This document shows positions 3,858 through 47,095 of a stretch of 64,000 nucleotides of DNA, piece after piece. Numbering within the stretch: position 1 is the first letter of the stretch; each line of letters starts with the position of its first letter. This stretch comes from Bacteroidia bacterium (GTDB lineage: Bacteria > Bacteroidota > Bacteroidia > Flavobacteriales > Flavobacteriaceae). The notes under the pieces are model-generated. The model was not told the origin of the DNA. It saw only the letters and a program-made list of their open reading frames with translations, and did not search any database. Location of the stretch: contig JAUIGO010000003.1 of assembly GCA_030429955.1 (NCBI GenBank), forward strand, positions 1-64,000, written 5' to 3'. The position numbers were made by a program, and so were the translations under genes.

Positions 3858-4430
3858 TTATTTACATTTCAGATAATTACTCAAAGCTAAATTAAATGAT
3901 TCTTTAGCATCAAAATCTTCAATCAGACCATTACCTTTCATGTCAATAAACGCACTAATACCATGCTGTATCATATAAGTTGGATGATAAGTTGGTTCAC
4001 CAACTTCTTTTATTTTCAAACAAATCTCACCTAAACTTTCTGAATTTGACTCTAACTCTTTCCGTATACTTTGAAAAATTAAATCAATCTGATTTTCATC
4101 AAATGACGCAAACATATTCTCTTGTAGCATTAATATAGCTTGATGTGCAGTCTTGTCTTTAACTCTAAAAGTATCATACTTTCCATATACTCCCGCAATG
4201 GCAAAAAGTCGAGCAGCCTTTTGATATTCTTTTGCTTGTACACATTTAGTCATACCATTAAGAATATCTACAGGATTATTATTGTTTTTAACTTCATTTA
4301 AACTAATACACTCTAAAGGATTAGGTGACTCTAAATTACCTTCCGCCTCTATAGATATTATTTTTTGAGCATTAATAGAATTTACTTCGAATATTATTAA
4401 TGCTAGAATAAATAGTTTCTTCTTTTTCAT
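3858..4430 (-). CDS. Secreted protein of unknown function
   Basis: The 190-residue product starts with a clear Sec signal peptide (KKKK, then a hydrophobic core, cleavage probably after INA at residue ~21). The mature part is mixed alpha/beta with few aromatic residues; it has Cys at ~42, 63, 136 and 189. I do not recognise a family. A segment around 145-160 (PTYHPTYMIQHGISAF) looks like a conserved core. It is the last gene of the minus-strand run mnmA, subtilase, flavoprotein, this gene, with a 13-nt gap to the flavoprotein gene and a strong terminator behind it, so it is probably co-transcribed. A periplasmic role is inferred only from the signal peptide. Confidence 0.7.
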   Translation of the reverse strand: MKKKKLFILALIIFEVNSINAQKIISIEAEGNLESPNPLECISLNEVKNNNNPVDILNGMTKCVQAKEYQKAARLFAIAGVYGKYDTFRVKDKTAHQAILMLQENMFASFDENQIDLIFQSIRKELESNSESLGEICLKIKEVGEPTYHPTYMIQHGISAFIDMKGNGLIEDFDAKESFNLALSNYLKCK

Positions 4431-4443
4431 AGTGAATCAATTT

Positions 4444-5385
4444 TCACAAACCAACAACATCCTTTTTAGCTGCTTCAAATTCAGCTAAGATTTCAGAAAC
4501 AATTTCAGCTACTGGCTTTATGTCGTGTATGAGTCCAGCTATTTGTCCTATTTCAAGTTCGCCATCATCCAAATCGCCTTCAAACATACCACGTTTGGCT
4601 CTCGCTCTTCCTAATAATTCTTTGAGCTGTTCTGCTGTTGGTGCTGTTTTATACAGTTCTTGAATCTCGTTATAGAATTTGTTTTTAATCAAACGTACAG
4701 GAGCCAGCTCTTTTAAAGTTAACTGTGTTGCACCTTCTTCAGCATCAACTACAACTTGCTTAAAGGCTTGATGTGCTGAGCTTTCTGTACTTGCTACAAA
4801 TCGGCTTCCAATTTGTACACCATCTGCTCCTAAAACCATAGTGGCCAACATACCTCTTCCTGTGGCAATGCCTCCAGCTGCAATCAACGGAATGTTAATT
4901 TTTTCTTTAACCATTGGAATTAAGGTCAACGTTGTTGTTTCATCACGTCCATTATGTCCTCCAGCTTCAAAACCTTCAGCAACCACAGCATCTACTCCAG
5001 CTTCTTGTGCTTTTAAAGCGAATTTTACACTACTAACCACATGCACCACAGTAATGCCTTTATCTTGTAACCATTTGGTCCAGGTTTTTGGATTTCCAGC
5101 AGAAGTGAATACTATTTTGACATCTTCCTCAACAATAATGTTCATAATATCCTCAATGTTTGGATATAACATTGGCACATTAACTCCAAAAGGTTTATCT
5201 GTTGCTTTTTTGCATTTTTGAATGTGCTCACGCAACACATCAGGATACATGCTTCCTGCACCTATTAAACCTAGAATTCCAGCATTACTAGACGCTGAAG
5301 CCAGCCTCCAACCACTGTTCCAAATCATACCTGCTTGTACAATTGGATATTGAATACCAAAGAGCTTCGTTATTTTATTCTGCAT
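4444..5385 (-). CDS. Nitronate monooxygenase / FabK-like FMN oxidoreductase
   Basis: This 313-aa TIM-barrel flavoprotein belongs to the nitronate monooxygenase (2-nitropropane dioxygenase-like) family, which also contains FabK enoyl-ACP reductases. Seen are IQAGMIWNSGWRLASA at the N-terminus, AGILGLIGAG, EGFEAGGHNGRDETT (FMN phosphate and substrate region), IAAGGIATGRGM and GADGVQIGSRF, the standard FMN-binding succession. The start ATG abuts the upstream subtilase stop with no gap. Typical family length is 310-360 aa, so it is complete. The substrate (nitronate, enoyl thioester or other) cannot be assigned from sequence alone. Confidence 0.88.
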   Translation of the reverse strand: MQNKITKLFGIQYPIVQAGMIWNSGWRLASASSNAGILGLIGAGSMYPDVLREHIQKCKKATDKPFGVNVPMLYPNIEDIMNIIVEEDVKIVFTSAGNPKTWTKWLQDKGITVVHVVSSVKFALKAQEAGVDAVVAEGFEAGGHNGRDETTTLTLIPMVKEKINIPLIAAGGIATGRGMLATMVLGADGVQIGSRFVASTESSAHQAFKQVVVDAEEGATQLTLKELAPVRLIKNKFYNEIQELYKTAPTAEQLKELLGRARAKRGMFEGDLDDGELEIGQIAGLIHDIKPVAEIVSEILAEFEAAKKDVVGL

Positions 5386-6993
5386 TTATTGCTTTAAAAG
5401 TTTTAATGATTTTGAATTAACACCTTCGGCTTGAATCTTTAAGAGATACAATCCGCTTGACAACTGTTGTAAATCGACAGGTTGAAAAGGTTGGATAATG
5501 GTTTCAATAACCAATTTTCCTAAAATATCATGAATATATAAATTCGCATTTTCTACCTCATCTGGAAACAGTACTTGTAAGGTTGTTTCAACAGGATTTG
5601 GAAAGAGTTTAAACTCAGTTAGTTCATTATTTTGGTTGCTTAGTTCTGTAGCTAAAGCATTACCTAAATTAGGGATACCATAACCTAAAAAATAATCAGG
5701 TGTTGTGTATTGTGACGCAGATTCTCTTACCAATTGCATCAGTTCAGCATTGGTTAAATCTGGAAGCGCCTGACGCAAACAAGCCAAGCCTCCTGTCATA
5801 ATTGGAGAACTGAAAGACGTTCCATTATTTTGAACAATAACGTTATCTGGTCCTATCACATAAGCTGCAGCTCCACGAGCTACAACATCAGGTTTTTGTG
5901 TTGGTTGTATGGCACTGCCTTGAGAACTGAACGACGCATAATCTCCGTTTAAATCTACAGCTCCTATGGTAAAAACACCTTGAGCATCAGCAGGTGCATT
6001 AACACCTGAAGCTCCAGCGTTTCCAGCTGAATTGATCAAAAGCAATCCTTTTTCAAAAGCAATATTGGCGCCTCTGGTGATAAATGCTGTGTTACCATCT
6101 AAATCACTGTTTGAATAACTGTAATTCGGGTTGTCATAACCTTTATATCCTAATGAGGTATTAATAATATCAACACCTAAACTATCTGCACGCTCAGCAG
6201 CTTCAACCCAATAGCTTTCTTCCACAGGATTTTCATGTTCTGCTTCTTCTGTTCTGAACAAATAATACGAAGCATCTGGAGCAGTACCTACATATTGATC
6301 CTGTATAAAACCAGCCATTGTGCTTAACACCTTTGTTCCATGTGTATTACCTGTGTAAGCATACACATCAGCAGTTCTGTTTACAAAGTCATAACCATCT
6401 AACAAGTCTCCAGCATCTCTTAATCTCTGAAATGCTCCCATAGTGTTCACGTTTGGAAAACCTGCATCTAACACAGCAACTGTAACACCTTCTCCTGTAA
6501 AATCCAATTCATGAAGAGCATCAGCATTTATCATTTCAACTTGATTTTGAGTGTTGCCATAGTCAAAATCAACTAAGGCATCTTCAACTTCAAATTTATT
6601 CATGTCATCATTAATTTGAATTGGTGACATATTTAAACCATCATCTGCAAAATCAATTGAAGATACAAAGTTCAGATTCAAAAGGTCATTGATATCAGAT
6701 TCGGTACCTCTTACATGAACAGCATTAAACCATTTAGATTTAGCCAAAACCAATATTCCAGTTGCGTTTTTTACTTGAGTGATATAACTTTCATTTACAG
6801 GAACATCGCGCTCATCAATAGCAACGTTATGATTTGCTTTTCGGTCTATTGCTTTTTGGGTAAGAATCGTTATAGGATTTGCAAGAGCAGTTGCAACATC
6901 TTCTTTATCGACAAAATAAACCCAAGCATCTTCTTGAGCAAAAAGGATGCATTGAAAGAAAATGAAACTTACAAAAAGTAATTTCTTTAGCAT
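5386..6993 (-). CDS. Subtilisin-like (S8) serine protease with type IX sorting domain
   Basis: This 535-aa exported protease has a Sec signal peptide (to about residue 19), a propeptide-like region (20-150) and an S8 catalytic domain with the full triad: Asp176 in VAVLDAGFPN, His218 in NTHGTKV and Ser393 in NGTSFSSP; Asn325 in SAGNAG supplies the oxyanion hole. The C-terminus (about 460-535) begins with LFPNPVETTLQV and ends in SLKLLKQ, a type A C-terminal domain for the Bacteroidota type IX secretion system, so the enzyme is likely delivered to the cell surface or medium. Its own promoter was not identified; it lies 24 nt after mnmA and runs directly into the flavoprotein gene. Confidence 0.92.
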   Translation of the reverse strand: MLKKLLFVSFIFFQCILFAQEDAWVYFVDKEDVATALANPITILTQKAIDRKANHNVAIDERDVPVNESYITQVKNATGILVLAKSKWFNAVHVRGTESDINDLLNLNFVSSIDFADDGLNMSPIQINDDMNKFEVEDALVDFDYGNTQNQVEMINADALHELDFTGEGVTVAVLDAGFPNVNTMGAFQRLRDAGDLLDGYDFVNRTADVYAYTGNTHGTKVLSTMAGFIQDQYVGTAPDASYYLFRTEEAEHENPVEESYWVEAAERADSLGVDIINTSLGYKGYDNPNYSYSNSDLDGNTAFITRGANIAFEKGLLLINSAGNAGASGVNAPADAQGVFTIGAVDLNGDYASFSSQGSAIQPTQKPDVVARGAAAYVIGPDNVIVQNNGTSFSSPIMTGGLACLRQALPDLTNAELMQLVRESASQYTTPDYFLGYGIPNLGNALATELSNQNNELTEFKLFPNPVETTLQVLFPDEVENANLYIHDILGKLVIETIIQPFQPVDLQQLSSGLYLLKIQAEGVNSKSLKLLKQ

Positions 6994-7017
6994 TTTTTAT
7001 GATTTGGTATCTGCAAG

Positions 7018-8205
7018 TTAAGAAATAACTCCAGAACCAACTAATTCATCGTTGAGATACCAAGCTACAAATTGACCTTCGGTTATTGCTGATTGAAATT
7101 CTTCAAATGCGACATATAAGCCATTGCTCACTTTGTAAAGTGTTGCTTTTTGAAGTGGCTGTCTGTATCGTATTCGAGCCATAACATCCATTGATTCGCC
7201 TTCCTGAATGGCTAAATCTTCACGAATCCAGTGTAACTCATCATTAGTTACAAAGAGTGCTTTTTTATATAAACCAGGATGCGATTTCCCTTGTCCTGTG
7301 TAAATCACATTCTCCTCAACATCTGTATCTATCACAAATAAGGGTCCTGCTGTTCCACCAACAGCCAAACCTTTTCGTTGACCTTTGGTAAAATAATGTG
7401 CACCTTGATGCTTGCCTACTATACGACCATCAGAAACGTTGTAATCCATTTTTCTGGATTCATATACAAGCTGATCTTCAACCGAGTTGAAACTTGGAGC
7501 TGTTTGAGAATACAATTGATAATCTTCAGGAATTTCTACAATAACACCTTCCTTAGGTTGGAGCTGTTGTTGTAAAAAATCTGGAAGTTTCACTTTTCCA
7601 ATAAAACACAAGCCTTGAGAATCTCTTTTTTCAGCAGTAATTAAATCCTGTTCTGTAGCAATTTGTCTCACTTCTGGTTTGGTCAATTCACCGATTGGAA
7701 ATAAAGTTTTTGCCAGTTGTTCTTGAGATAATTGACATAAAAAGTACGATTGGTCTTTGTTGTTGTCTTTCCCAGCTAACAATTGATAAATGTTCTTACC
7801 CTCTTTTTCAATAGTCCCTTTTCTGCAATAGTGACCAGTTGCTACAAAATCGGCTCCTAAGTCCAAGGCAATTTTCATAAAGACATCAAACTTAATTTCT
7901 CTGTTGCAAAGTACATCTGGATTTGGCGTACGACCTCTTTCATATTCATTGAACATGTAATCGACAATGCGCTCTTTGTATTGAGCACTTAAATCGACTG
8001 TTTGAAACGGAATGCCTAACTTTTCAGCAACTAGCATGGCATCGTTGCTATCTTCCAGCCAAGGACACTCATTAGATATAGTCACAGAATCGTCATGCCA
8101 ATTCTTCATAAAAAGTCCAATAACCTCGTAGCCTTGCTCTTTTAAGAGAAACGCTGCAACGCTAGAATCTACACCTCCAGAAAGTCCTACTACTACTCTT
8201 TTCAT
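7018..8205 (-). CDS. mnmA: tRNA-specific 2-thiouridylase MnmA
   Basis: MnmA thiolates uridine-34 of the tRNAs for Lys, Glu and Gln. Seen are the PP-loop SGGVDSS at residue ~9, the catalytic cysteine in [12 protein letters not shown], the second catalytic cysteine in SQGLCFIGK, and the C-terminal beta-barrel ([12 protein letters not shown] onward). The 395-aa length is somewhat above the E. coli length (about 368). I place the start at the ATG at 8203-8205: the in-frame TTG 21 nt further upstream (8224-8226) is part of a perfect -7 promoter box and cannot be in the mRNA made from it. The gene heads a minus-strand run that continues into the subtilase gene. Confidence 0.95.
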
Positions 8206-24074: not shown

Positions 24075-24998
24075 ATGCAAAGACGTTTAATAGATTATCT
24101 TATCATCTCATTAAAAGGCATGGCAATGGGAGCAGCAGATGCTGTCCCAGGAGTTTCTGGTGGCACTATTGCTTTTATTTCTGGTATTTATGAAGAGCTT
24201 ATAAATACCATTAGTGGTGTCAATCTGTCTTTATTAACAACCTTAAGAAAAGAAGGTTTTTTTACCTTTTGGAGTCAACTAAATGGCAACTTTATTTTGG
24301 CCCTTCTAAGCGGAATCATTATAAGTTTTGTTTCCTTTATGAGGCTCGCCAAATATTTACTTGAAAATCATCCAATACTGATTTGGTCATTCTTTTTCGG
24401 GCTTATCATTGCCAGTATTTATTTTGTTGGAAAACAAATCACAAAGTGGCATTTAGCAACCTTCGCCGGAATTATTATTGGTGCTGTAATTGCTTATTAT
24501 ATTACTACAATTCCAGCATCATCTGTAAATGAAAGCTCATATTTTTTGTTTTTTGCTGGTGCCTTAGCCATTTGCGCCATGATTTTACCAGGAATCTCAG
24601 GTTCATTTATACTCGTCATATTAGGTGCTTATAAAACATTAAGTGATGCTATTAGCGATTACGATTTTAAAAAATTAGCCCTATTTGTTGGTGGAGCTAT
24701 TGTTGGCTTGCTTAGTTTTAGCCATGTTCTTAAATGGTTGTTCAAAAAATACCATAATTTAACTTTAGCATTGCTAACAGGTTTTATTATTGGTTCTTTA
24801 AACAAAGTTTGGCCATGGAAAAAAGTGTTGACTTGGCGTGAAAATTCTGAAGGCATTCAAGTGCCATTTCTTGAAGAAAGCGTGTCTCCTTTTGTATTTA
24901 ATGGTGATGCAAAATTAGCGCTTGCAATTAGCTTTATGGTTATTGGTTTTTTAACTATCTTTTTGCTTGAAAAATTAGGTTCAAAAGCCAACAAGTAA
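24075..24998 (+). CDS. DUF368 (PopT-type) undecaprenyl-phosphate translocase family, copy 1
   Basis: This 307-aa polytopic membrane protein of DUF368 has about nine TM helices and the two signature half-repeats: KGMAMGAADAVPGVSGGTIA (residue ~13) and MILPGISGSFILVILGAY (residue ~172). DUF368 (PopT) proteins are established as C55-phosphate flippases that return the lipid carrier for peptidoglycan and O-antigen synthesis to the cytoplasmic face. No residue here distinguishes that substrate. A second DUF368 gene starts 1 nt after the stop, and the two proteins align over their whole length, so this is a tandem duplication or a heteromer pair. Confidence 0.88.
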   Translation: MQRRLIDYLIISLKGMAMGAADAVPGVSGGTIAFISGIYEELINTISGVNLSLLTTLRKEGFFTFWSQLNGNFILALLSGIIISFVSFMRLAKYLLENHPILIWSFFFGLIIASIYFVGKQITKWHLATFAGIIIGAVIAYYITTIPASSVNESSYFLFFAGALAICAMILPGISGSFILVILGAYKTLSDAISDYDFKKLALFVGGAIVGLLSFSHVLKWLFKKYHNLTLALLTGFIIGSLNKVWPWKKVLTWRENSEGIQVPFLEESVSPFVFNGDAKLALAISFMVIGFLTIFLLEKLGSKANK

Positions 24999-24999
24999 A

Positions 25000-26019
25000 A
25001 TGCAAAGCACACGATCATTTACAGATAAATTATTTCTAGTTATTAAAGGACTAGGAATGGGAGCTGCCAATAAAGTTCCTGGTGTATCTGGTGGTGTTGT
25101 GGCTTTTGTAGCTGGCTTTTACGAAGAGTTTATTTACTCCTTGCAAAAGGTAAACGGAAAAGCATTTAAGTTATTAGTTAATGGTCGTTTTACAAGTTTC
25201 TTTCGTTATATCAATGGTCGTTTTCTAAGCCTCTTGTTTCTAGGAATGGTTGTAAGTTATTTTAGTGTTTCCAAAATTCTTGATTACCTCATAATACATT
25301 ACGAGCTATTTGTTTGGAGCGTGTTTTTTGGAATGATTATAGGCTCCATATATTACATCAATAAAGATTTTAAAGATTGGAATACCAAAACAGTCGTTGC
25401 TCTCATTATTGGAATTAGCATTGGTCTTGGCATTAGTTTTTTAGATCCAGCAAAGCAGAATGACAACCTTTGGTTTGTTTTTTTCTGCGGAATAATTAGT
25501 GTTTCCGGAATGACACTTCCTGGTTTTTCAGGCTCGTTCATATTGATTTTACTCGGTAATTATGTATTGTTACTCGTTGATTCTGTAAATGCTTTATACG
25601 ATACGATTGCTGATGTATTTACATGGAATTTCGATTTCATCTCAAACCCTGAGCGCATCAGAATGCTCAAAGTCCTAGCTGTATTTACCTTAGGATCTGT
25701 TGCAGGTTTAGTCACTTTTTCACATATATTAAATTACGTTTTAAAGCACTATAAAAACATTACATTATCAATTTTAATGGGTTTTATTATTGGGTCGCTT
25801 GGTGTGGTTTGGCCATGGAAAAAAACCATATATAAACTTTCAGAAACTGGAGAGATTTTAAAGGATAGAACTGGCGAAAAAATAATTGAAAACTACCAAC
25901 GTTTTTTACCAGAACTAAACTCAGAAACCTTTACAGCAATAGCATTTGTGGTAGTAGGTATCCTCATCGTGTTGGCTTTAGAATGGTATGGACAAAAAAC
26001 AAGAAAGTTACGTGTATAA
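25000..26019 (+). CDS. DUF368 (PopT-type) undecaprenyl-phosphate translocase family, copy 2
   Basis: This 339-aa paralog of the preceding gene has the signatures KGLGMGAANKVPGVSGGVVA and MTLPGFSGSFILILLGNYVLL. It differs from copy 1 in the first motif (AADAVPG becomes AANKVPG), in a ~20-aa longer loop around 190-215 (DTIADVFTWNFDFISNPERI) and in a longer C-terminal loop before the last helix (KDRTGEKIIENYQRFLPEL). The aroE gene overlaps its 3' end by 32 nt. Both copies keep the family core, so both should be active; whether they act on different prenyl carriers is unknown. Confidence 0.88.
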   Translation: MQSTRSFTDKLFLVIKGLGMGAANKVPGVSGGVVAFVAGFYEEFIYSLQKVNGKAFKLLVNGRFTSFFRYINGRFLSLLFLGMVVSYFSVSKILDYLIIHYELFVWSVFFGMIIGSIYYINKDFKDWNTKTVVALIIGISIGLGISFLDPAKQNDNLWFVFFCGIISVSGMTLPGFSGSFILILLGNYVLLLVDSVNALYDTIADVFTWNFDFISNPERIRMLKVLAVFTLGSVAGLVTFSHILNYVLKHYKNITLSILMGFIIGSLGVVWPWKKTIYKLSETGEILKDRTGEKIIENYQRFLPELNSETFTAIAFVVVGILIVLALEWYGQKTRKLRV

Positions 26020-36436: not shown

Positions 36437-37345
36437 TTATTCTTTTAGCTCATTGAACAAATTATCCTGATGCTTTTTCTTGGCGTAGTCATAACCTTGC
36501 CGCCACCAATTCACCATTAAACGTTTGCTAAAAATAAGAGAGTTTTCAGTTAAGGTTGTTGGCGTGTAATAAATATTCAGATTAACATTCTTGTTTTTTG
36601 CCGCTAATTTTCCAATGGTAATATCATTTCTTTCAACTTGATCCAATAAGTGACCAAATAAGCTCAGCATCAATGAAAATGGGTTCTTACCCAATACTTT
36701 TTTATTCTCCATACTCTCGGCCTCCAAAACTATGGCATCCACCTCAGTAGCACCACGCAAAATAGCCTCACGTATAGGAACCACACAAGCCAAACCTCCA
36801 TCTGCATATTCAAAACCATCAACTGTAGCTAAAGACATAAATGGTATATAGTTACAAGAAATCCAGATCCAATTACAAAATTCTTCATAAGTACATTCAT
36901 TGATAGACTTATACTCTACTCTGTTTTTAGACAGGTTAGAAACCGTTACCACAACATCTTCTTTTGTTGCTCTAATTTCATGAAATTCCTCTTCAGTGAA
37001 ATTTCTCCTAATATTGCGCTTTAAATGCTTGCTTTCTCCAAAGGTGCGTTTCATACGTATAAACTGCCATAACGAATTAATAAAGTCTATTGACACGAAC
37101 TCTCGATCGCCTTTTTTACGCTGTACAAAAGGGCTTACACTAAAAATATCTCGCTGTGTCACATTCGTGAATAAATCATATACCTTATCAATTTTGTTTA
37201 AGGACAAATGCGGAATAAGCAAACTTCCTGTTGAAGTTCCTAAAAACATATCATACTCACTCCCAAGATCTTGCATTAAATACTGTGCAACACCTCCAGC
37301 GAACGCTCCTTTACTTCCTCCTCCTGATATCACTAATGCTCTCAT
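36437..37345 (-). CDS. Patatin-like phospholipase, copy B
   Basis: This 302-aa intracellular patatin-family acyl hydrolase has the Ser-Asp dyad: nucleophile Ser in GTSTGS (residue ~40) after the oxyanion loop SGGGSKGAFAGG (residue ~7), and the catalytic Asp in EYADGGLACVVP (DGG, residue ~183). Patatins remove acyl chains from phospholipids. The start overlaps the stop of the upstream paralog by 4 nt (ATGA), so the two are coupled. It is shorter than most bacterial patatins with membrane domains, with no transmembrane segment. Substrate unknown. Confidence 0.9.
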   Translation of the reverse strand: MRALVISGGGSKGAFAGGVAQYLMQDLGSEYDMFLGTSTGSLLIPHLSLNKIDKVYDLFTNVTQRDIFSVSPFVQRKKGDREFVSIDFINSLWQFIRMKRTFGESKHLKRNIRRNFTEEEFHEIRATKEDVVVTVSNLSKNRVEYKSINECTYEEFCNWIWISCNYIPFMSLATVDGFEYADGGLACVVPIREAILRGATEVDAIVLEAESMENKKVLGKNPFSLMLSLFGHLLDQVERNDITIGKLAAKNKNVNLNIYYTPTTLTENSLIFSKRLMVNWWRQGYDYAKKKHQDNLFNELKE

Positions 37346-38250
37346 TCTGTAATTTCTAACTGGCTAGATTTTTCATTGACATGCTTAGCAAATTGAAAAC
37401 CACTTTGCCACCATTGTGTCATTTTTTCTTTATTGAAAATTAATGAATTTGTAGTCAAAACTGTTGGTGTGTAATAAAAATTGATAATGGCGTTGTTGTT
37501 TGTTGCTACAAACTTACCAATCCTGATGTTTTGACTTTCAATTCTATCCAGCATAAAATTAAACATATTTGTTAATAACGAAAATGGATTAAGTGATGGC
37601 ATCCTGTTTAGCTGAGACACCTCAGTTTGCAAAATAATGGCATCAACTTCAGTTGCGCCTCGTTTTATAGCCTCTTCAATTGGCACCATAGAACCCAAAC
37701 CACCATCTGCATACTCACATCCATTTTTTTTAACTAGCGACATAAAAGGTGTGTAATTGCAGGAAATCCAAATCCACTCACAAAACTCTAAGTAACTAAA
37801 ATCTTTTATCGATTTATATTCAACTTGATTAAGGGAAAGGTTCGAGACCGTCACAACAACATCAAGAGAACTCTGCTTTAGAGTATTAAAATCTGTTTCT
37901 GTAATAGAATCTTCAATAAGTTTTTTTAAATGATAACTTTCACCAAAGGTCTTACTGCCTTTGATGAAATTTTTGATGATGTTATAATGATGTATTCCAA
38001 TATTCTCAACACCATGTTTCGTTTTTATTTTAAACGGACAATGGCTAAAAATATCTCTTTGCGTAACGTTTGTGTAGATTTCTTTAATTTCTTCAACCTT
38101 GCCTGATGCTAAATGTGAAACCAGTAAACTTCCCGTGGACGTTCCAATAAAGAGATCGTAACTGTTCTTTTTTTGTTCAATAAGATATTGCGCCACACCA
38201 CCAGCAAAAGCGCCTTTACTTCCTCCTCCTGAAATGACTAGTGCTTTCAT
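37342..38250 (-). CDS. Patatin-like phospholipase, copy A
   Basis: The 302-aa paralog of copy B has the same length and keeps SGGGSKGAFAGG, GTSTGS and EYADGGLGSMVP, so the dyad is intact. The central part (about 60-130) is the least similar to copy B (for example HCPFKIKTKHGVENIGIH against VSPFVQRKKGDREFVSID), as expected for a substrate-binding lid after duplication. The last ~20 residues are unrelated. Copies A and B form a two-gene operon on the minus strand divergent from recG. Confidence 0.9.
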   Translation of the reverse strand: MKALVISGGGSKGAFAGGVAQYLIEQKKNSYDLFIGTSTGSLLVSHLASGKVEEIKEIYTNVTQRDIFSHCPFKIKTKHGVENIGIHHYNIIKNFIKGSKTFGESYHLKKLIEDSITETDFNTLKQSSLDVVVTVSNLSLNQVEYKSIKDFSYLEFCEWIWISCNYTPFMSLVKKNGCEYADGGLGSMVPIEEAIKRGATEVDAIILQTEVSQLNRMPSLNPFSLLTNMFNFMLDRIESQNIRIGKFVATNNNAIINFYYTPTVLTTNSLIFNKEKMTQWWQSGFQFAKHVNEKSSQLEITE

Positions 38251-38330: not shown

Positions 38331-40868
38331 ATGAATACAAATCTCCAAACTCCAATTGATTATTTAAAAGGCGTTGGTCCAAATCGTGCAGATTTGTTGC
38401 GCAAGGAGCTTGGTATTCACACTTATCAGGATTTAATTAATCTCTTCCCTAATCGTTATATTGATAGAACTCAGTATTACAAAATAAACCAATTACAGCG
38501 TAACTCAGCCGAAGTCCAAATTATTGGACAAATCACCAACATGAAAGAAGTGGCTCAAAAACGAGGTAAACGTTTGATAGCAAATTTTCAAGATGACACT
38601 GGAAGTATGGAATTGGTATGGTTTAGAGGACACAAATGGATAAGAGAAAGCATCAAACCCAATACACCTTATGTGATTTTTGGAAAAACCAATTGGTTTA
38701 ATGGTACGTTTAGCATGCCACATCCAGAAATGGAATTACTTAAAGATCATGAAAAAAGCCTAAGCTCTGCCATGCAAGCTGTATATCCATCAACTGAAAA
38801 ACTATCAAATAAAGGCATCACAAATCGCGTGATTATAAAAATCATGCAACAATTATTTTTGGACACCAAAGGGAAATTTGCCGAAACTTTATCTGAAAAT
38901 CTTCTTGAAGAACAAAAATTATTATCAAAATCAGAAGCCCTTTTTAACATTCATTTTCCGAAGTCACAATCGCTTTTAGCACGTGCTCAATTTCGTTTAA
39001 AGTTTGAAGAATTATTTTACATCCAACTTCAGTTAATTTTAAAAAATCTCATCCATAAATCAAAAATCAAAGGCTTCCCTTTTGAAAAAGTAGGCACTTA
39101 TTTCAACACCTTTTTTCAAGAGCATTTACCTTTTGAATTGACCAATGCACAGAAACGAGTTATTAAGGAAATTAGACATGATTTAGGTAGCAATGCACAG
39201 ATGAATAGACTTTTACAAGGCGATGTTGGCTCAGGAAAGACCATAGTTGCGTTAATGTCAATGTTTATAGCACTTGACAACGGTTTTCAAGCCTGCCTAA
39301 TGGCTCCAACTGAAATTTTGTCAGTCCAACACTATAATGGATTATTAGAACACTGTAATAAATTGAAAATCAGTATTAAACTACTCACTGGTTCAACTAA
39401 TACTTCAGAAAGAAAAAAAATTCATGAATCGCTTGAAAATGGCGATTTACAGATCCTAATTGGCACTCATGCCTTGCTTGAAGATAAGGTGAAATTTAAA
39501 AATTTAGGGCTTGCTATTATTGATGAGCAACATCGATTTGGAGTTGAGCAACGAAGTAAATTATGGAAGAAAGGCCCTCCTCTTTCCTCCCAAAGGGAGG
39601 ATGCAAAATCTATTCGTCAAAAGTATATGACTGCGCGTCCATTAGCATATAAATTGATGAAGGAATTACAACAAGAAAATAAAAAAAACAGCACTGAAGC
39701 AGAACGTGCCTTATGGGAATCTTTAAGAGGTAAAAAATTAGATGTCAAATTTAGAAGGCAACACATCATAGATGAATTTATAGTTGATTTTGTTTGCCTA
39801 GAAAAAAATCTCATTATAGAAGTAGATGGAGGTTATCATACAAACATAGAGCAAAAAGAAGCTGATGATTTACGAACACAAATTCTAAACGAGATTGGAT
39901 TCACAGTGATTAGATTTACCAATGAGCAAATTATTGGAGATATTGATAAAGTTTTAGAATATATTGAGAACAGGCTAAAAAGCCTCCCTTCTGGGGAGGT
40001 TGGTGGGGCTTCTATTCCTCCACACATTTTAATTATGACTGCAACTCCAATTCCGAGAACATTAGCTATGTCTGTTTATGGTGATTTGGACATCTCAATA
40101 ATTGATGAATTACCTCCTGGAAGAAAGGATATTAAAACCGTACATCGATACGATAATAATCGACTTAAAGTTTGGCGATTTTTAAAGGATGAAATTAAAA
40201 AAGGCAGACAGGTTTATATCGTTTATCCATTAATCCAAGAAAGTGAAACTATGGATTATAAAGATTTAATGGATGGCTATGCGAGTTTGGAGCGAGATTT
40301 TCCAAAACCAGAATATCAAATTTCAATTGTGCATGGAAAAATGAAGGCTGTAGACAAAGATTATGAAATGCAACGCTTTATGAAAGGTGAAACCCAAATC
40401 ATGGTTGCCACAACTGTAATTGAAGTAGGCGTAAATGTACCAAATGCTTCGGTTATGGTTATAGAAAGTGCTGAACGTTTTGGTTTATCCCAATTGCATC
40501 AATTACGTGGTCGTGTTGGTCGAGGTGCAGAGCAAAGCTATTGTATCTTGATGACAAGCCATAAGTTAAGCAATGACAGTAAAATACGGTTAGAGACTAT
40601 GGTAAAAACCAATGATGGCTTTGATATTGCTGAAGTAGATTTAAGATTGCGAGGACCAGGCGATATTATGGGAACACAGCAAAGTGGTGTGTTGAACTTA
40701 AAAATTGCAGACATCATTAAAGATAAAGATATCTTACAGCAAGCACGTTATTACGCCAAGCGTGTTTTAAACAATGATCCTTCGCTATCTCTTCTTGAAA
40801 ACAAAACGATTCTGAATACATATAAACAACTAAGTAAATACAAGAACATCTGGAATTATATTAGCTAA
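38331..40868 (+). CDS. recG: RecG helicase with in-frame DUF559 nuclease insertion
   Basis: RecG reverses stalled replication forks and remodels Holliday junctions. The 845-aa frame has the wedge OB domain (about 60-170), Walker A GDVGSGKT (297-304), APTEIL, DEQH (398-401), TATPIPRT (570-577), and motifs IV-VI up to QLHQLRGRVGRGAEQSYCIL. All helicase motifs are intact. Between KLWKK (414) and IPPHIL (562) sit 147 residues foreign to RecG: a Vsr-like DUF559 domain with STEAERALW (454-462), DEFIVDFVC (Asp486), IIEVDGGYH (Glu497, Asp499, His503). Without the insert the protein is 698 aa, the normal RecG length. The insert has no stop and is bounded by GC-rich hairpins. Whether the chimera is a stable, active helicase or nuclease is unknown. 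Confidence 0.95.
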   Translation: MNTNLQTPIDYLKGVGPNRADLLRKELGIHTYQDLINLFPNRYIDRTQYYKINQLQRNSAEVQIIGQITNMKEVAQKRGKRLIANFQDDTGSMELVWFRGHKWIRESIKPNTPYVIFGKTNWFNGTFSMPHPEMELLKDHEKSLSSAMQAVYPSTEKLSNKGITNRVIIKIMQQLFLDTKGKFAETLSENLLEEQKLLSKSEALFNIHFPKSQSLLARAQFRLKFEELFYIQLQLILKNLIHKSKIKGFPFEKVGTYFNTFFQEHLPFELTNAQKRVIKEIRHDLGSNAQMNRLLQGDVGSGKTIVALMSMFIALDNGFQACLMAPTEILSVQHYNGLLEHCNKLKISIKLLTGSTNTSERKKIHESLENGDLQILIGTHALLEDKVKFKNLGLAIIDEQHRFGVEQRSKLWKKGPPLSSQREDAKSIRQKYMTARPLAYKLMKELQQENKKNSTEAERALWESLRGKKLDVKFRRQHIIDEFIVDFVCLEKNLIIEVDGGYHTNIEQKEADDLRTQILNEIGFTVIRFTNEQIIGDIDKVLEYIENRLKSLPSGEVGGASIPPHILIMTATPIPRTLAMSVYGDLDISIIDELPPGRKDIKTVHRYDNNRLKVWRFLKDEIKKGRQVYIVYPLIQESETMDYKDLMDGYASLERDFPKPEYQISIVHGKMKAVDKDYEMQRFMKGETQIMVATTVIEVGVNVPNASVMVIESAERFGLSQLHQLRGRVGRGAEQSYCILMTSHKLSNDSKIRLETMVKTNDGFDIAEVDLRLRGPGDIMGTQQSGVLNLKIADIIKDKDILQQARYYAKRVLNNDPSLSLLENKTILNTYKQLSKYKNIWNYIS
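39585..39601. repeat. Left terminal hairpin of the DUF559 element
   Basis: A 7-bp perfect stem, TCCTCCC/GGGAGGA, with AAA loop, GC-rich and translated as the codons for SSQRED in the RecG frame. Confidence 0.7.
39979..40011. repeat. Right terminal hairpin of the DUF559 element
   Basis: CCTCCC (39983-39988) pairs with GGGAGG (39994-39999). An outer AAGCC (39980s) can pair with GGCTT (40007-40011). The strand continues TTGGTGGGGCTT. Translated as KSLPSGEVGGAS. Confidence 0.7.
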
Positions 40869-41115: not shown

Positions 41116-44019
41116 ATGAAACTTAAAACCGTTATACAAATACTTTGCTTTTGCAATCTTCTCTTTTTAAGTTGCACAAAAGCCAATACCTCTAAAGCTT
41201 CTATTCAAGAAGTACCAATGACTTTTAAAACCTATCCTTTTTCAGATCCAAGTCCTGTTGTAGATATGAACAACATTTATCCTTACTTTAAATTTGATGG
41301 TTATACAGATAATGCTATTGAACAATCTTGGAAAATGGTAGTTCTAGAAAATGACTACATCAAGGTATTTGTTAGTCCTGAGATTGGAGGGAAAGTTTGG
41401 GGAGCGATTGAAAAATCGACTGGAAAAGAATTTTTGTACTACAATGATGTTGTAAAATTCAGAAATATTGCCATGAGAGGTCCTTGGACGTCTGGTGGTT
41501 TAGAATTTAACTTTGGAGATATTGGTCATGCACCTTCCTGCTCTACTCCTGTTGACTATAAATTAGTTGAAAATGATGATGGCAGTGTTTCTTGCATCGT
41601 TGGCGCTTACGATTTACCTTCAAGAACACGCTGGAACATAGACATCAAACTCCCTAAAGATAAAGGCTATCTTGAAACAAAGGTCTCTTGGTTCAACACA
41701 ACCAATCAGTTTACAACCTATTACCAATGGATGAATGCTGCTGCTAAAGCCTCAGGCAATTTAGAATTTACCTATCCCGGAAAGAATTTTATTGGACATA
41801 ATGGTGAAACTGGTAATTGGCCAATAAATGACAACAGAGATATTTCAAAATACGAGAACAATAATTTCGGTGGCTATAAATCGTATCATGTACTCAATGC
41901 GTATTCTGATATTTTTGGTGGTTATTGGAAAGATGATGATTTCGGATTTGGACATTACGTTAATTATGATGAAAAACCAGGTAAAAAACTTTGGATTTGG
42001 GGATTATCAGATCAAGGCATGATTTGGGAAGATTTGCTTACAGACACAAAAGGTCAATATATTGAGTACCAAGCTGGAAAATTGTTCAACCAAGCATCAC
42101 CTGGAAGCACATTGTCACCCTTTAAGCACAAAGAATTTGAGCCTCATGCATCAGATGTTATGACCGAACTTTGGTTTCCGCTAAAAGACACTAAAGGTAT
42201 GGTTTCAGCTTCTAAACAAGCCGTTCTAAATGTTGAAACCTCAAAGGATTCCTTAACGGTTTACGTGAGCGCATTAGAAACACTCTCAGAAACTTTACAT
42301 ATTGAACAAGAAGGAAATGCACACCAATTTGAAGTCAAGCTTAATCCTTTAGACGTGTTTAAAACAACGATAGCTCATAATCAGACAAAAGAATTTAATA
42401 TTCGACTCGGTGAGAAACTGTTGACATATTCATCACACCCAAAAGATGTCTTAGTCAACAGACCACTAAACCATAAAGCTGATTTCAATTGGGATTCAGC
42501 ATACGGAATTTACACTAAAGCTTTGGAGCTTGAAAAGCAACGTCAATACGATGAAGCTTTAAACGAATACCACAACTGTATTGAAAAAGACCCCGGATTT
42601 TTACCAGCATATAGTAGGTTATCTTTGGCTTATTATAGAAAAATGGATTATCAAAGTGCTTTAAAGTACAGCGAGGAGGCCTTGTCTATTGATACTTACC
42701 ATCCAGAAGTCAACTACGCTTATGGTCTTGCAAATGTTAAGCTTGGTCATATTGCAGATGCTAAATCTGGATTTTCTCTAGCTTCACAATCACCTAGCCT
42801 TCGCTCCTCTTCGTTTGTAGAATTAGCAAAATTGTTTTTAAAAGAAAACAATCATCAAAAAGCACTTCATTACGCTCATAAAGCTATGGATTCTGATAGC
42901 AATAACATTTTAGCTTATATGATTCAAGCTTTTGCTAACAGAGATTATAATAAAACAGAAGCTAAAAATGCCATACAAACCATTTACAAACTCGACCCTC
43001 TTTCAGATTTTGCACGTTTTGAAGAAGTGCTTCTAGGCGAAAATAATTTAGAAACTTTCAATTCAGGAATCACAAATGAATTGCCTTTTGAATCGTATTT
43101 AGAATTAGCAGCCACATATCTACAATTTAATGATATTGCATCTGCAATTTCTGTTTTAAAAGAAAGCCCAAAACATCCAATAGTCAATTTATGGCTTGCT
43201 AATCTTGATAAGGATAATCAAAACAACTACTTAGAAAGTGCTTTGCAGGCATCAGCCGAAATGATATTTCCACATCGTGCTGAAACCGCTGAGTTTCTTC
43301 AAAATTCGCTTAAAACAAATCAGCATTGGAAACTAAAATACTATTTAGGACTTATTTATTGGCACAAAGGATTGAAAGAAAAGGCTTCAGAATTATTTGA
43401 ACAATGTCAAAGCGAGCCAGATTTCTCGGCATTTTATTTAACAAAGTTAAAATTGGTTGAAATGATTCCTTCTGAAGAAAGAAATCATCTTGAAAGAGCA
43501 ATGGCATTGGATCCAAATGATTGGCGTACAGCCTTAGCCTTAAACAATAATTACCTTAACAATAATGAAACTTCTAAAGCCATTACTATTGGTGAAAAAT
43601 TTATACAATTGTTTCCTGAAAACTCACAAATTGGTATGAATTACACCTCAGCCCTTTTAAAAGATAAACAATATTTGAAGGCTTTCACTTTCTTGGAAAA
43701 TTTCAACATCTTACCGTTTGAAGGCTCTACTGAAGGCAAAAAGATTTACACCTTAGTTTGTATAAAATTAGCACTAAAATCATACTCTCAGAAGCAGTAC
43801 GAAGATGCCATTATGTATGCTGAAAAAGCAAAATTATGGCCAAGAAATCTTGGTGTTGGAAAACCTTATGATGTTGATGAACGTTTGGAAAATTACATCA
43901 TTGTAAAAGCAAATGATAAACTGGGAAAAAATTCCGATTCTCAAAAATTAAAAGACGATTTAATGAAAACACCTTCAGATATCGAATTGACACGTGAAGC
44001 TTTAAAAACACTAAACTAA
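41116..44019 (+). CDS. DUF5107 and TPR lipoprotein
   Basis: The 967-aa lipoprotein (signal ending LFLSC, Cys ~20) has a DUF5107 domain (about 45-340): IEQSWKMVVLENDYIKVFVSPEIGGKVWGAIE, RNIAMRGPWTSGGLEFNFG, and WGLSDQGMIWEDLL. A second beta module follows (about 360-455), then at least ten TPR units (about 460-960), for example PAYSRLSLAYYRKMDYQSAL and NYAYGLANVKLGHIADAK. DUF5107 resembles galactose-mutarotase and beta-sandwich domains of glycoside enzymes. The gene precedes a putative glycoside hydrolase by 10 nt, so glycan handling at the outer membrane is a reasonable inference. No SusC/SusD pair or sensor is present, so the substrate is open. Confidence 0.8.
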   Translation: MKLKTVIQILCFCNLLFLSCTKANTSKASIQEVPMTFKTYPFSDPSPVVDMNNIYPYFKFDGYTDNAIEQSWKMVVLENDYIKVFVSPEIGGKVWGAIEKSTGKEFLYYNDVVKFRNIAMRGPWTSGGLEFNFGDIGHAPSCSTPVDYKLVENDDGSVSCIVGAYDLPSRTRWNIDIKLPKDKGYLETKVSWFNTTNQFTTYYQWMNAAAKASGNLEFTYPGKNFIGHNGETGNWPINDNRDISKYENNNFGGYKSYHVLNAYSDIFGGYWKDDDFGFGHYVNYDEKPGKKLWIWGLSDQGMIWEDLLTDTKGQYIEYQAGKLFNQASPGSTLSPFKHKEFEPHASDVMTELWFPLKDTKGMVSASKQAVLNVETSKDSLTVYVSALETLSETLHIEQEGNAHQFEVKLNPLDVFKTTIAHNQTKEFNIRLGEKLLTYSSHPKDVLVNRPLNHKADFNWDSAYGIYTKALELEKQRQYDEALNEYHNCIEKDPGFLPAYSRLSLAYYRKMDYQSALKYSEEALSIDTYHPEVNYAYGLANVKLGHIADAKSGFSLASQSPSLRSSSFVELAKLFLKENNHQKALHYAHKAMDSDSNNILAYMIQAFANRDYNKTEAKNAIQTIYKLDPLSDFARFEEVLLGENNLETFNSGITNELPFESYLELAATYLQFNDIASAISVLKESPKHPIVNLWLANLDKDNQNNYLESALQASAEMIFPHRAETAEFLQNSLKTNQHWKLKYYLGLIYWHKGLKEKASELFEQCQSEPDFSAFYLTKLKLVEMIPSEERNHLERAMALDPNDWRTALALNNNYLNNNETSKAITIGEKFIQLFPENSQIGMNYTSALLKDKQYLKAFTFLENFNILPFEGSTEGKKIYTLVCIKLALKSYSQKQYEDAIMYAEKAKLWPRNLGVGKPYDVDERLENYIIVKANDKLGKNSDSQKLKDDLMKTPSDIELTREALKTLN

Positions 44020-44029
44020 TCACAGCCTT

Positions 44030-47000
44030 ATGAACCAACTAAGCAGAATAACAGTAATAATATCAATTTTGATATGTGCTTGCTCAAAAACAGAAACTGA
44101 TAACGCAAATTATAGAAATAAGGAAGTTACAGCATCCTATTATGATGTGCCTTACGAAAGTGGAAATTGGGAACACCCAAAATACAAAGAAGCTTTTGAG
44201 TCTTTTGGTAATCAACGTGCAGTAATTGAATTATCATCAAACACAATTGAAAACACTCAAATTATAATCCCTTGGAGACGTCGCGACAACCATCCTGAAA
44301 CAAAAGACATTATTATTGTAGATGCTAGTACAAATGAAGTTGTAGAAAACAAATATGTTATAGAAAACAATAACGAATTTGGTCACCTTGTATTCAAGCC
44401 AAATCAAGATTCAAAAATGTATTATGTGTATTATTTTCCGCACCAATCTACAGGTTCTTACTATCCGAAATTAAACTACAAAGCACCAACACAAACCGAA
44501 GATAAAACTTGGTTAAATGAGATAGAGCAAACCAATATTAGTGATTTACCAAAAGCCAACGTAACAAGCATACAATCCATTGATGATTTTCATAGCTTTT
44601 TCCCAATGGAAGTAATTGCAACTCAAGAGGAAGTTTCTGAATTTATGAGTAACAATCCTCAGCCTTATTATGTATTCCCAGAATACAGAAACAATCCAAT
44701 AAAACTCACAGATTTTTTACCTGTTCGTTGGATTAAAAACCCAGAATCAATAATTGGCATTTCAGATAATGCAAAACGTGGTGAATACTACACGTTTCAA
44801 GTTGGAGTGTATTCTTCTGAGAATGATTTAGAAGATCTAGAGATAACCTTTTCAGATTTAAAGAGTGCTAACAACAGTATTTCAAAAGCAGAAATTACTT
44901 GTTTTAACAAAGGAGGTATTGATTTAAATGGTAAATCATTTGATAAGATAGTTTCTGTACCAAAAGGAAAGACTCAAGCACTTTGGTTTGGCATCAATAT
45001 TCCAGAAACTGCAACGCAAGGCACTTATAAAGGTAGCGTTATTATTAAACCAAAAAGCATGGTTGCAGATACTGTTTATGTAAAACTTAATGTATCGTCT
45101 GAAAAAATAGAAAACCATGGCGATGACCAACCTGAAAACATGACGCGATTACGTTGGCTAAATTCAACCATTGGAACTGATGAAGATTTTATTATAAAAC
45201 CGTTTACTCCTGTTGAAATTTCAAATAAAACCCTTAGCATTCTTGGTCGTGACATTGAACTGAACGAATTTGGTCTACCAAATAATATTGATTCTTATTT
45301 CACACCAGAAATGACCAAGTTTTCAACTGAGAAAGAGCACCTATTAAAACAACCTATTCAATTAAATGTCACAAAAAATGATGGATCAACAATTGAATGG
45401 ACTTCTAGTGATTATACTATCAATCAAACCCATAAAAGTGTTGTCAATTGGCAAGCTATAAATACTTCTGATAATTTAACACTGACTATTAATGGCACAT
45501 TGGAATACGATGGTATGCTAGAATATAACATGCAATTAATTGCAAAAAACAACATCCATTTAAACGATGTTAATCTGCAAATCCCAATGCAGAAAGACGC
45601 TGCAAAATACATACTTGGTCTTGGTGAAAAAGGAAGCTCTTTAAAAAAATCAATCCATTGGAAATGGAACGTTACCAAACACCATGAAGGTGCTTGGTTG
45701 GGCGGCATTAACAAAGGACTTCAATTTGTACTGAGAGATGAAAATTACGAGCGTCCTTTGAACACTAATTTCTACCAACAAAAACCATTAAACCTTCCTC
45801 CTTCTTGGCACAATGATGGCAAAGGAGGTATTGACATCACAATGCAAAACGATGGTGTTTTAGTGAAGAACTACAGTGGCGAAAGAACCGTGCAACAAGG
45901 TGATACCCTAAATTTTAATATTCGTTTTTTAATTACGCCTTTCAAATTAATTGACACTAAAGAGCATTTCAATACACGTTTTGTACATAAATATATCCCT
46001 GTAGATTCTGTTGTCAATTACAACGGAACCATCGTGAATGTGCATCATGCTAACGAAATAAATCCTTATATCAACTATCCATTTTTCAATCTGGACAAAC
46101 AAAAGGCTTATATTGATGAAGCTCACAGCAAAGGTATTCGTGTGAAACTTTATAATACCATTAGAGAACTCACCTATAAATCACATGAATTGTTCGCACT
46201 AAAAAGTCTTGGAGATGAAATTTTAAACGATGGTGAAGGTGGTGGTCACAGTTGGCTTCAAGAACATTTTAAATCTAATTATCACTCTGCTTGGCATGCT
46301 ACAAGCGTTAACGATGCTGCCATACTAAATAAAGGCACTTCCAGATGGACCAATTACTACATTGAAGGTATTAATTGGCTGGTAAAAAATCAAGAGATTG
46401 ATGGCCTTTATCTAGACGATATTGCTTTCAGCAGAAGCACTGTAAAACGCATTGCAAGTGTGTTTGACACACATAGAGAATCGTTTGTGATTGATTTACA
46501 TTCAGCCAATCAATACAATAATCGTGATGGTTATATAAATAGTGCCTTTTTGTATATGGAACATTTTCCATACATATCAAGGCTATGGTTTGGTGAGTAT
46601 TTTGAATATGATTTAGATCCTGATTATTGGTTAACCGAAGTGTCTGGAATTCCTTTTGGGCTAACAGGAGAAATGCTAGAAAAAGGAGGCCATCCTTATC
46701 GTGGATTAGTTTACGGAATGACCACACGTGTTTATCATAATTTTAATCCAGGAGCGATTTGGAAATTATTTGATGATTTTGATATTGCTAATGCGGACAT
46801 GTTAGGCTATTGGGTTGATAGATCTCCAATAAAAACAAATCACCAAAATATAAAAAGCACAGTTTATGTACATGATAATAAAGTATTGATTGCGATTGGC
46901 TCTTGGTCTGATAAAAACGAACAAGTCACTCTAAACATTGATTGGAATGCTTTAGGCTTTAATAAAAATTCAGCACAACTAACAAGCCCTGAAATTAAAG

Positions 47001-47095
47001 GCTTGCAGTTACATAATACGCATGATATCAATAAGCCTATCACAGTTGAAAAGAATCAGGGACTTATTTTAGTATTGAATAGAAAAAGTGAATAA
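44030..47095 (+). CDS. DUF6067-like glycoside hydrolase family lipoprotein
   Basis: The 1021-aa lipoprotein (LICAC lipobox, Cys ~18) has N-terminal beta-sandwich modules (about 200-540) and a C-terminal barrel (about 640-920) with YINYPFFNLDKQKAYIDEAH, IRVKLYNTIREL, a likely acid pair in GLYLDDIAFSR (about residues 792-802), YMEHFPYISRLWFGEYFEYD and PFGLTGEMLEKGG. This ends with a beta domain (about 930-1021). The order matches large glycoside hydrolases of the DUF6067/GH group in marine Bacteroidota. Glu and Asp in the barrel motifs are the candidate catalysts. It is second in the operon with the DUF5107-TPR lipoprotein. The glycan is not identifiable. Confidence 0.72.
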   Translation: MNQLSRITVIISILICACSKTETDNANYRNKEVTASYYDVPYESGNWEHPKYKEAFESFGNQRAVIELSSNTIENTQIIIPWRRRDNHPETKDIIIVDASTNEVVENKYVIENNNEFGHLVFKPNQDSKMYYVYYFPHQSTGSYYPKLNYKAPTQTEDKTWLNEIEQTNISDLPKANVTSIQSIDDFHSFFPMEVIATQEEVSEFMSNNPQPYYVFPEYRNNPIKLTDFLPVRWIKNPESIIGISDNAKRGEYYTFQVGVYSSENDLEDLEITFSDLKSANNSISKAEITCFNKGGIDLNGKSFDKIVSVPKGKTQALWFGINIPETATQGTYKGSVIIKPKSMVADTVYVKLNVSSEKIENHGDDQPENMTRLRWLNSTIGTDEDFIIKPFTPVEISNKTLSILGRDIELNEFGLPNNIDSYFTPEMTKFSTEKEHLLKQPIQLNVTKNDGSTIEWTSSDYTINQTHKSVVNWQAINTSDNLTLTINGTLEYDGMLEYNMQLIAKNNIHLNDVNLQIPMQKDAAKYILGLGEKGSSLKKSIHWKWNVTKHHEGAWLGGINKGLQFVLRDENYERPLNTNFYQQKPLNLPPSWHNDGKGGIDITMQNDGVLVKNYSGERTVQQGDTLNFNIRFLITPFKLIDTKEHFNTRFVHKYIPVDSVVNYNGTIVNVHHANEINPYINYPFFNLDKQKAYIDEAHSKGIRVKLYNTIRELTYKSHELFALKSLGDEILNDGEGGGHSWLQEHFKSNYHSAWHATSVNDAAILNKGTSRWTNYYIEGINWLVKNQEIDGLYLDDIAFSRSTVKRIASVFDTHRESFVIDLHSANQYNNRDGYINSAFLYMEHFPYISRLWFGEYFEYDLDPDYWLTEVSGIPFGLTGEMLEKGGHPYRGLVYGMTTRVYHNFNPGAIWKLFDDFDIANADMLGYWVDRSPIKTNHQNIKSTVYVHDNKVLIAIGSWSDKNEQVTLNIDWNALGFNKNSAQLTSPEIKGLQLHNTHDINKPITVEKNQGLILVLNRKSE

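Follow-up and report, generated by a model that had tools for sequence, protein, structure and literature searches.

A SusC/SusD-free gene pair in a Flavobacteriaceae genome, from a recurring and so far uncharacterised pairing of enzymes whose glycosidase is probably mislabelled

Introduction

Two described proteins combine a DUF5107 domain with TPRs: YphG of Escherichia coli K-12 (yphA-H), in which DUF5107 precedes the TPRs in one protein of 1,093 amino acids (aa), next to genes for a putative aldose 1-epimerase and a putative ABC transporter, and BDI_1685 of Parabacteroides distasonis, solved with the same layout (PDB 5cd6). The Pfam family PF19543 is used as a GH123 signature in an excerpt of PMC13355591, and in part of PMC11087588 the DE motif and DUF4091 are treated as common to beta-N-acetylgalactosaminidases. 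Here we analyse two adjoining genes, ORF1 (DUF5107-TPR) and ORF2 (PF19543), in the first 64,000 nucleotides (nt) of contig JAUIGO010000003.1 (assembly GCA_030429955.1, Flavobacteriaceae), a stretch hereafter called the window. This locus probably represents the SusC/SusD-free side of a recurring pairing of enzymes, uncharacterised so far, whose putative glycosidase is mislabelled and probably unclassified.

In GH66 enzymes an Asp acts as the nucleophile and a Glu as the acid/base. An excerpt of PMC5408701 places the catalytic Asp and Glu where strands 4 and 6 end. The active-site residues of FpGalNase, a GH36 enzyme, are described in an excerpt of PMC11762096.

A preliminary description of the window had read the pair as a compact, transporter-independent glycan system or as enzymes of the cell's own surface polymers; as a whole this interpretation is partly supported. 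Searches of open-licence PMC papers found no functional study of either protein.

Results

As first described, the two large genes stand 10 nt apart on the + strand, the stop of ORF1 being at 44019 and the ATG of ORF2 at 44030, and both are full-length open reading frames (ORFs). A RecG-like gene ends 247 nt 5' of ORF1 and the gene downstream of ORF2 is convergent, 2 nt beyond its end, so that ORF1 and ORF2 look like a two-gene unit. Both had been called lipoproteins, and lipobox-like starts that predict this can be read in each. The features are as follows.

41116..44019, + strand: ORF1, DUF5107-TPR protein, predicted lipoprotein, 967 aa (Pfam; model pLDDT 89.7; 5cd6 match)
41173..41175, + strand: lipobox cysteine C20 (LFLSC) of ORF1, read by eye in the translation
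41263..42180, + strand: DUF5107 domain, galactose-mutarotase-like fold (Pfam, structure comparison, conservation)
42499..43968, + strand: TPR-type helical repeats, residues 462-951 (Pfam TPR matches; helices in the model)
44030..47095, + strand: ORF2, PF19543 full-length protein, predicted lipoprotein, 1021 aa, with a GH123-type N module and a GH66-like barrel
44081..44083, + strand: lipobox-like cysteine C18 (LICAC) of ORF2, with an atypical -2 residue, read by eye in the translation
44753..45115, + strand: beta-sandwich homologous to the GH123 N-terminal domain, residues 242-362 (profile comparison, PDB profile matches, PF22680)
45209..45943, + strand: galactose-mutarotase-like supersandwich, residues 394-638 (VIA-align to 3mwx)
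45959..46834, + strand: (beta/alpha)8 barrel, residues 644-935, partly GH66-like and not GH123_cat-like by profile
46415..46420, + strand: D796-D797, end of barrel strand 4 in our strand count (conservation, GH66 alignment)
46595..46597, + strand: E856, end of barrel strand 6 in our strand count (conservation, strand position, GH66 analogy)

Relatives were searched in one genome per species (84,980 species), which gave 131; the best 80 loci were kept, so that distant relatives are under-represented. All ORFs of these loci were clustered, then marked with local profiles. The counts are made on 79 loci, L105 being left out: our crude ORF caller gave no intact glycoside hydrolase (GH) ORF there, the match (4325-7288) lying just after DUF5107. 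A quick LG+G4 tree of 57 rows—midpoint rooted, Flavobacterium thinned by hand—splits in two with an SH-aLRT of 100, and 23 further loci were placed by their best BLAST hit. Clade A (31 rows) holds the window, Cytophagales, Gemmatimonadota and others; clade B (26 rows) holds Flavobacterium, Echinicola, Sphingobacterium and others, and since Flavobacterium dominates it, its counts are not independent.

The two clades carry the pair in opposite orders. DUF5107 lies upstream of the GH gene in 15 of the 33 clade A loci (absent in 7, unresolved in 11) and downstream of it in 38 of the 46 clade B loci (absent in 3, unresolved in 5), i.e. the partner is lacking or cut by a contig end in 18 and 8 loci respectively. 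In 14 of the 15 clade A cases the gap between the genes is of -44 to 40 nt. The pair is found in Bacteroidota, Gemmatimonadota, Acidobacteriota, Fidelibacterota and one Aminicenantes metagenome-assembled genome (MAG); as the pairing spans phyla in both gene orders, it argues for a joint function of the two families. Among 99 relatives, own genome included, PF17128 (DUF5107) matches in 14 and PF19543 in 7, the latter over its full length in two of these seven (G000 and G003). PF19543 also matches in 23 of the 395 genomes of a sample across the phylum, 12 of them over full length (own genome included). The host genome (3.09 Mb, 121 contigs) has a single match for each of the two families.

None of the 33 clade A loci has SusC/D in its flanks; in 18 loci each flank extends 7 kb or more, in 15 at least one is shorter. 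By contrast SusC/D occur in 38 of the 46 clade B loci (10-kb flank), 37 of them with DUF5107 and one cut before it. The preliminary description would have been refuted by a pair that usually lies by SusC/D in relatives and is separated from them here by rearrangement alone; such a position is seen in clade B (37/46) and never in clade A (0/33). A local rearrangement is ruled out: because SusC/D are missing from the flanks of all clade A loci and the gene order is reversed compared to clade B, their absence is a trait of the clade.

Representative clade B loci contain SusC, SusD, an arylsulfotransferase-like protein, a cytochrome c, the ORF2 relative, the ORF1 relative, an M1 peptidase and a GH109; some add a GLAA-B-type beta-helix or a DUF3472 protein. 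Upstream, L140 and loci akin to it have an extracytoplasmic function (ECF) sigma factor and FecR. In Flavobacterium loci such as L131, the arylsulfotransferase-like gene and the cytochrome c, with a SoxA/TsdA match, stand inside the SusC/D locus. Clade A neighbourhoods are barer than those of clade B, with various other genes elsewhere. A sulfatase is found in the flanks of five of them (upstream in L093 and L094, 5.8-7.8 kb off in L086 and L087, downstream in L096); L137, which also bears one, belongs to clade B. GH95 lies directly upstream in three clade A loci, L084-L086, the first two being almost copies of each other. L085 is filed as an Alphaproteobacteria MAG and its ORF2 is near-identical to that of the Cytophagales contig L084, possibly through a binning error. 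A cluster matching PIG-L deacetylase (scanned in L090) lies upstream in L090, L091 and L122. Besides, five loci (L065-L069) carry SusC, a SusD-like gene, an FG-GAP/ASPIC-UnbV protein and DUF5107 without an adjoining ORF2 relative.

The window has 56 ORFs of at least 100 aa, 47 of which were scanned with Pfam (E limit 0.1 in the scan that covered the pair, 0.001 in the other scans), the other 9 overlapping longer ORFs. Apart from ORF2, these 47 include no SusC, SusD, sulfatase, FecR, histidine kinase or glycoside hydrolase family, hence no nearby SusC/SusD pair by which to recognise a polysaccharide utilisation locus; the lack of SusC/SusD, sulfatase and sensor had been noticed at first sight, and clade A shares that of nearby SusC/SusD. 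In the whole genome PF07980 and PF00884 (sulfatase) have no match. The former result suggested a genome without Sus pairs, an idea dropped when PF14322 and PF12771 revealed SusD-like genes elsewhere (one and two respectively), each a few kb from a gene with a TonB Plug domain (PF07715), of which the genome has 26 matches, 24 above the cut-off. Among 20 ORFs listed around the SusD-like genes, the six scanned are two AraC-type regulators, a weak POTRA match, an rRNA methylase and two without match. Since two SusD-like genes and 26 Plug matches exist despite the lack of PF07980, Sus systems are scarce in the host genome rather than missing.

These data bear on the compact, truly transporter-independent glycan system proposed at first. 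The clade A flanks without SusC/D and a genome without PF07980 or sulfatase match speak for it; however, the Plug-domain and SusD-like genes elsewhere might serve import in trans, and no sugar uptake or breakdown genes stand beside the pair in the window. We consider such independence unlikely.

ORF2 matches PF19543 ("GH123_N") over residues 57-1016, i.e. positions 6-968 of the 969 of the profile, with 1276.9 bits; no NCBIfam model matches it. Its model (pLDDT 89.7, pTM 0.88) comprises, from the strand list and structure matches, N-terminal sandwiches, the supersandwich (Z 16.8 to 3mwx, root mean square deviation (rmsd) 3.0, 205 aligned), the barrel and a C-terminal sandwich. Folds of glycan type are thus seen in the models of both proteins, in agreement with the glycan-processing type first assigned to them. 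The N domain (residues 242-362) compares with the GH123 N-terminal beta-sandwich profile at 98.0% (E 2.1e-13), PF22680 matches at 306-340 (36.5 bits for a cut-off of 27), and the full-length profile finds in the PDB six chains of beta-N-acetylgalactosaminidase type, including 5l7v and 5fqe, all at about profile residues 226-345.

By profile, only this N-terminal sandwich is GH123-like. GH123_cat (PF13320; DUF4091 region) has no match in ORF2 at E 0.1 nor in its barrel at E 10; at the position of the pair it is missing from six genomes at E 10, with two weak matches elsewhere. As a positive control, four true GH123 proteins from relatives all match GH123_cat at 4e-93 or better, their best PF19543 stretch being confined to positions 190-311 of 969. 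The barrel scores 0.2% against a GH123_cat profile of four rows, the same four that give 98.0% for the N domain. The barrel alignment, for which there is no homologous GH123 alignment, contains no invariant Asp-Glu pair: 50 of 50 sequences carry D-D where strand 4 ends. Of the four true GH123 rows, one has N-E at the DE column.

That ORF2 is a GH123 beta-N-acetylgalactosaminidase working by substrate-assisted catalysis is what its Pfam name implies and what the use of PF19543 as a signature (PMC13355591, in part) takes for granted; the homologous N domain, PF22680 above its cut-off, and the GalNAc/Gal-related names of GH109 and the GLAA-B-type protein in clade B go the same way. The GH123_cat control and the 0.2% of the barrel go against it, as may the missing Asp-Glu pair, and the first two rule it out as the most likely reading; we regard it as improbable. 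The name under which the databases file the larger protein probably implies an active site of another kind than its own.

The barrel weakly resembles GH66, of which we do not claim membership. Against a GH66 profile of six rows it scores 80.3% (E 1.4e-5, 100 columns), D796 being aligned to the Asp that is invariant in GH66, for 0.1% in the control comparison of GH123_cat and GH66; the Pfam model PF13199 is sub-threshold in the four barrels tested (12.0-19.2 bits for 23.7 needed). D796, D797 and E856 are identical in 50 of 50 sequences, down to 42% identity. D796 follows the strand 792-795 and E856 the strand 851-854, 60 residues apart, while the Asp-Glu spacing in GH66 is 61-62 in the four rows, of six, in which our motif found both. 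On this resemblance we propose D796 as the nucleophile and, by analogy, E856 as the acid/base. In structure searches with Foldseek the nearest solved fold is FpGalNase (8x1b, E 1.6e-17) and ranks 1-4 are all GH36 or GH31, including MYORG (7qqh), though they superpose weakly; ORF2 matches neither family in Pfam, and the barrel profile has a single match in the PDB, unrelated, at E 0.07. Taken together, full-length PF19543 might form an unclassified glycosidase family misfiled as GH123, which would combine a GH123-type N module, a mutarotase-like supersandwich and a GH66-like barrel, with DUF5107-TPR as dedicated partner and a SusC/D-free lineage across several phyla: we put this forward as a tentative view, a little short of even odds.

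In ORF1, DUF5107 (PF17128) covers residues 50-355 with an E of 1.2e-120 (402.6 bits for a cut-off of 24.4) and is followed by the TPRs. The fusion had been thought odd; it is the normal layout of the family, as DUF5107 is found in 36 of 36 aligned relatives and TPR_19 in 35, and YphG and 5cd6 are built alike. The model superposes on both parts of 5cd6 (Z 35.0, rmsd 4.0, 549 aligned of 575 residues, 18% identity), followed by mutarotase-like chains at Z about 18-24. E130, H138 and E317 of the DUF5107 domain are identical in the 36 relatives.

The rest of the window consists mainly of housekeeping genes, peptidases and patatins, according to the Pfam scan. Its nearest named relative, the Flavobacteriaceae MAG locus L081 (97% to ORF2, 96% to ORF1), has neighbour genes in the same order and of nearly identical length. 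The scan for promoters and terminators stayed at background level; a Bacteroidota-type promoter pattern has four matches, fewer than the 7.4 expected on average by chance, and none of them lies close to the pair. In the RecG-like helicase (38331-40868, 845 aa), residues 445-549 form a DUF559 endonuclease-like domain that lies between DEAD and Helicase_C. Two patatin genes of 302 aa each overlap in tandem (36437-37345 and 37342-38250). The contig of L053/L081 shows an 845-aa ORF at the position matching the helicase and two 302-aa ORFs of one cluster at the place of the patatins. Two undecaprenyl-phosphate-translocase-like genes (PF04018) are adjacent at 24075-24998 and 25000-26019.

Discussion

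We favour, at a probability of roughly 0.55, an exported catabolic pair for processing glycans, made of a probably retaining, unclassified glycosidase and a mutarotase-like TPR partner. ORF2 would be an exported, lipid-anchored, multidomain enzyme whose GH123-type N sandwich and mutarotase-like supersandwich position the substrate, probably an alpha-linked glycan, over the GH66-like barrel; there the anomeric carbon would be attacked by D796, where strand 4 ends, with E856, where strand 6 ends, serving as acid/base, for a retaining reaction. The DUF5107 domain of ORF1 might bind the released or incoming sugar and possibly interconvert its anomers through E317 and a His, while the TPR superhelix might dock ORF2 or a different partner. 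The clade B unit stands behind a SusC/D importer of the same gene run; clade A would have lost, or never gained, this link and would depend on different receptors or on a substrate formed within the envelope.

The importer and catabolic neighbours in clade B, as well as the sulfatase or GH95 found in part of the clade A loci, speak for a role in breaking down glycans. They also bear on the remodelling of the cell's own surface polymers, the other role first envisaged, which the lack of an adjoining importer, the lipoprotein-like signals, a GT2 and an LptA-like gene in the window (at distances, however, of about 39 kb and 20 kb) and the PIG-L type deacetylase upstream in a few clade A loci might suggest. 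Sulfatase, GH95, GH109 and SusC/D point outward, to catabolism; besides, none of 28 scanned neighbour proteins is clearly envelope-biosynthetic and, whereas two of the four genomes of the genus have DUF5107, both DUF5107 and PF19543 are absent from the other two (one of them 62% complete). Such remodelling is thus improbable too. A non-catalytic glycan-binding scaffold, with degenerate barrel and mutarotase domain, would fit the lack of a characterised member in the literature searches, but hardly the identity, in 50 of 50 sequences, of acidic residues at both expected strand ends, and is very improbable.

Several observations weigh against the catabolic glycosidase pair that we favour. The ORF2 barrel, at 19.2 bits, stays below the PF13199 cut-off of 23.7, and weak PF13199 matches are common, 16 of 30 matching genomes having none above it. 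The GH66 alignment, limited to 100 columns, ends before strand 6, so that the role of E856 is drawn by analogy only. The best Foldseek chain superposes poorly (rmsd 10.2, TM 0.32/0.45) and is not among the best 50 VIA-align rows, the top of which are LacZ-type enzymes, a PL26 lyase and a GH174 fucanase; as these are tied (Z 16.9-17.7) and differ from the GH36 of Foldseek, the ORF2 fold singles out no one family. Pairing is not obligatory: 10 of the 79 loci lack DUF5107 despite at least 3.5 kb on both sides, as do 5 of 11 loci of the phylum sample beside the ORF2 relative. Finally the lipobox-like signal is uneven: by a crude rule, wrong starts included, it is present in 19 of 29 ORF2 relatives of clade A for 1 of 46 in clade B, and, by the same kind of rule, in 3 of 13 and 2 of 38 ORF1 relatives. 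From the ORF2 counts, one clade may have changed from a soluble to a lipid-anchored enzyme, or the reverse. Neither ORF1 nor ORF2 has a clear acidic surface-export signal.

If the proposed reading is true, a Pfam family used as a GH123 signature by at least one annotation resource labels proteins with a different active site, and metagenome surveys would overcount GH123. A candidate partner and candidate residues would be gained for DUF5107, which is still a domain of unknown function although it is present even in E. coli K-12. The two clades would also form a natural experiment, in which the same enzyme pair occurs both beside a SusC/D importer and without one.

Compared with known systems, ORF1 differs from YphG by its context, that of YphG including the ABC transporter and a NagC-like regulator, while none of its annotated neighbours is an ORF2 relative; BDI_1685, for its part, is shorter and is listed without an assigned function. 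GH123 enzymes (BvGH123, 5l7r; CpNga123, 5fqe; PMC11087588, in part) share with ORF2 the N-terminal beta-sandwich, whereas its barrel lacks both profile similarity to theirs and a GH123_cat match, and its supersandwich is extra. With GH66 dextranase and CITase, ORF2 would share a barrel segment of 100 columns, the Asp at the end of strand 4 and the Glu at the end of strand 6; it falls below the Pfam cut-off and its other domains differ. FpGalNase (GH36) and MYORG (GH31) are its best Foldseek matches, across most of their length, but with weak superposition, 7-10% identity and no Pfam match to such families. The SusC/D locus of Flavobacterium (e.g. L131), with a reversed order, an importer, a peptidase and a GH109, and mostly without lipobox, has the same two gene families adjoining.

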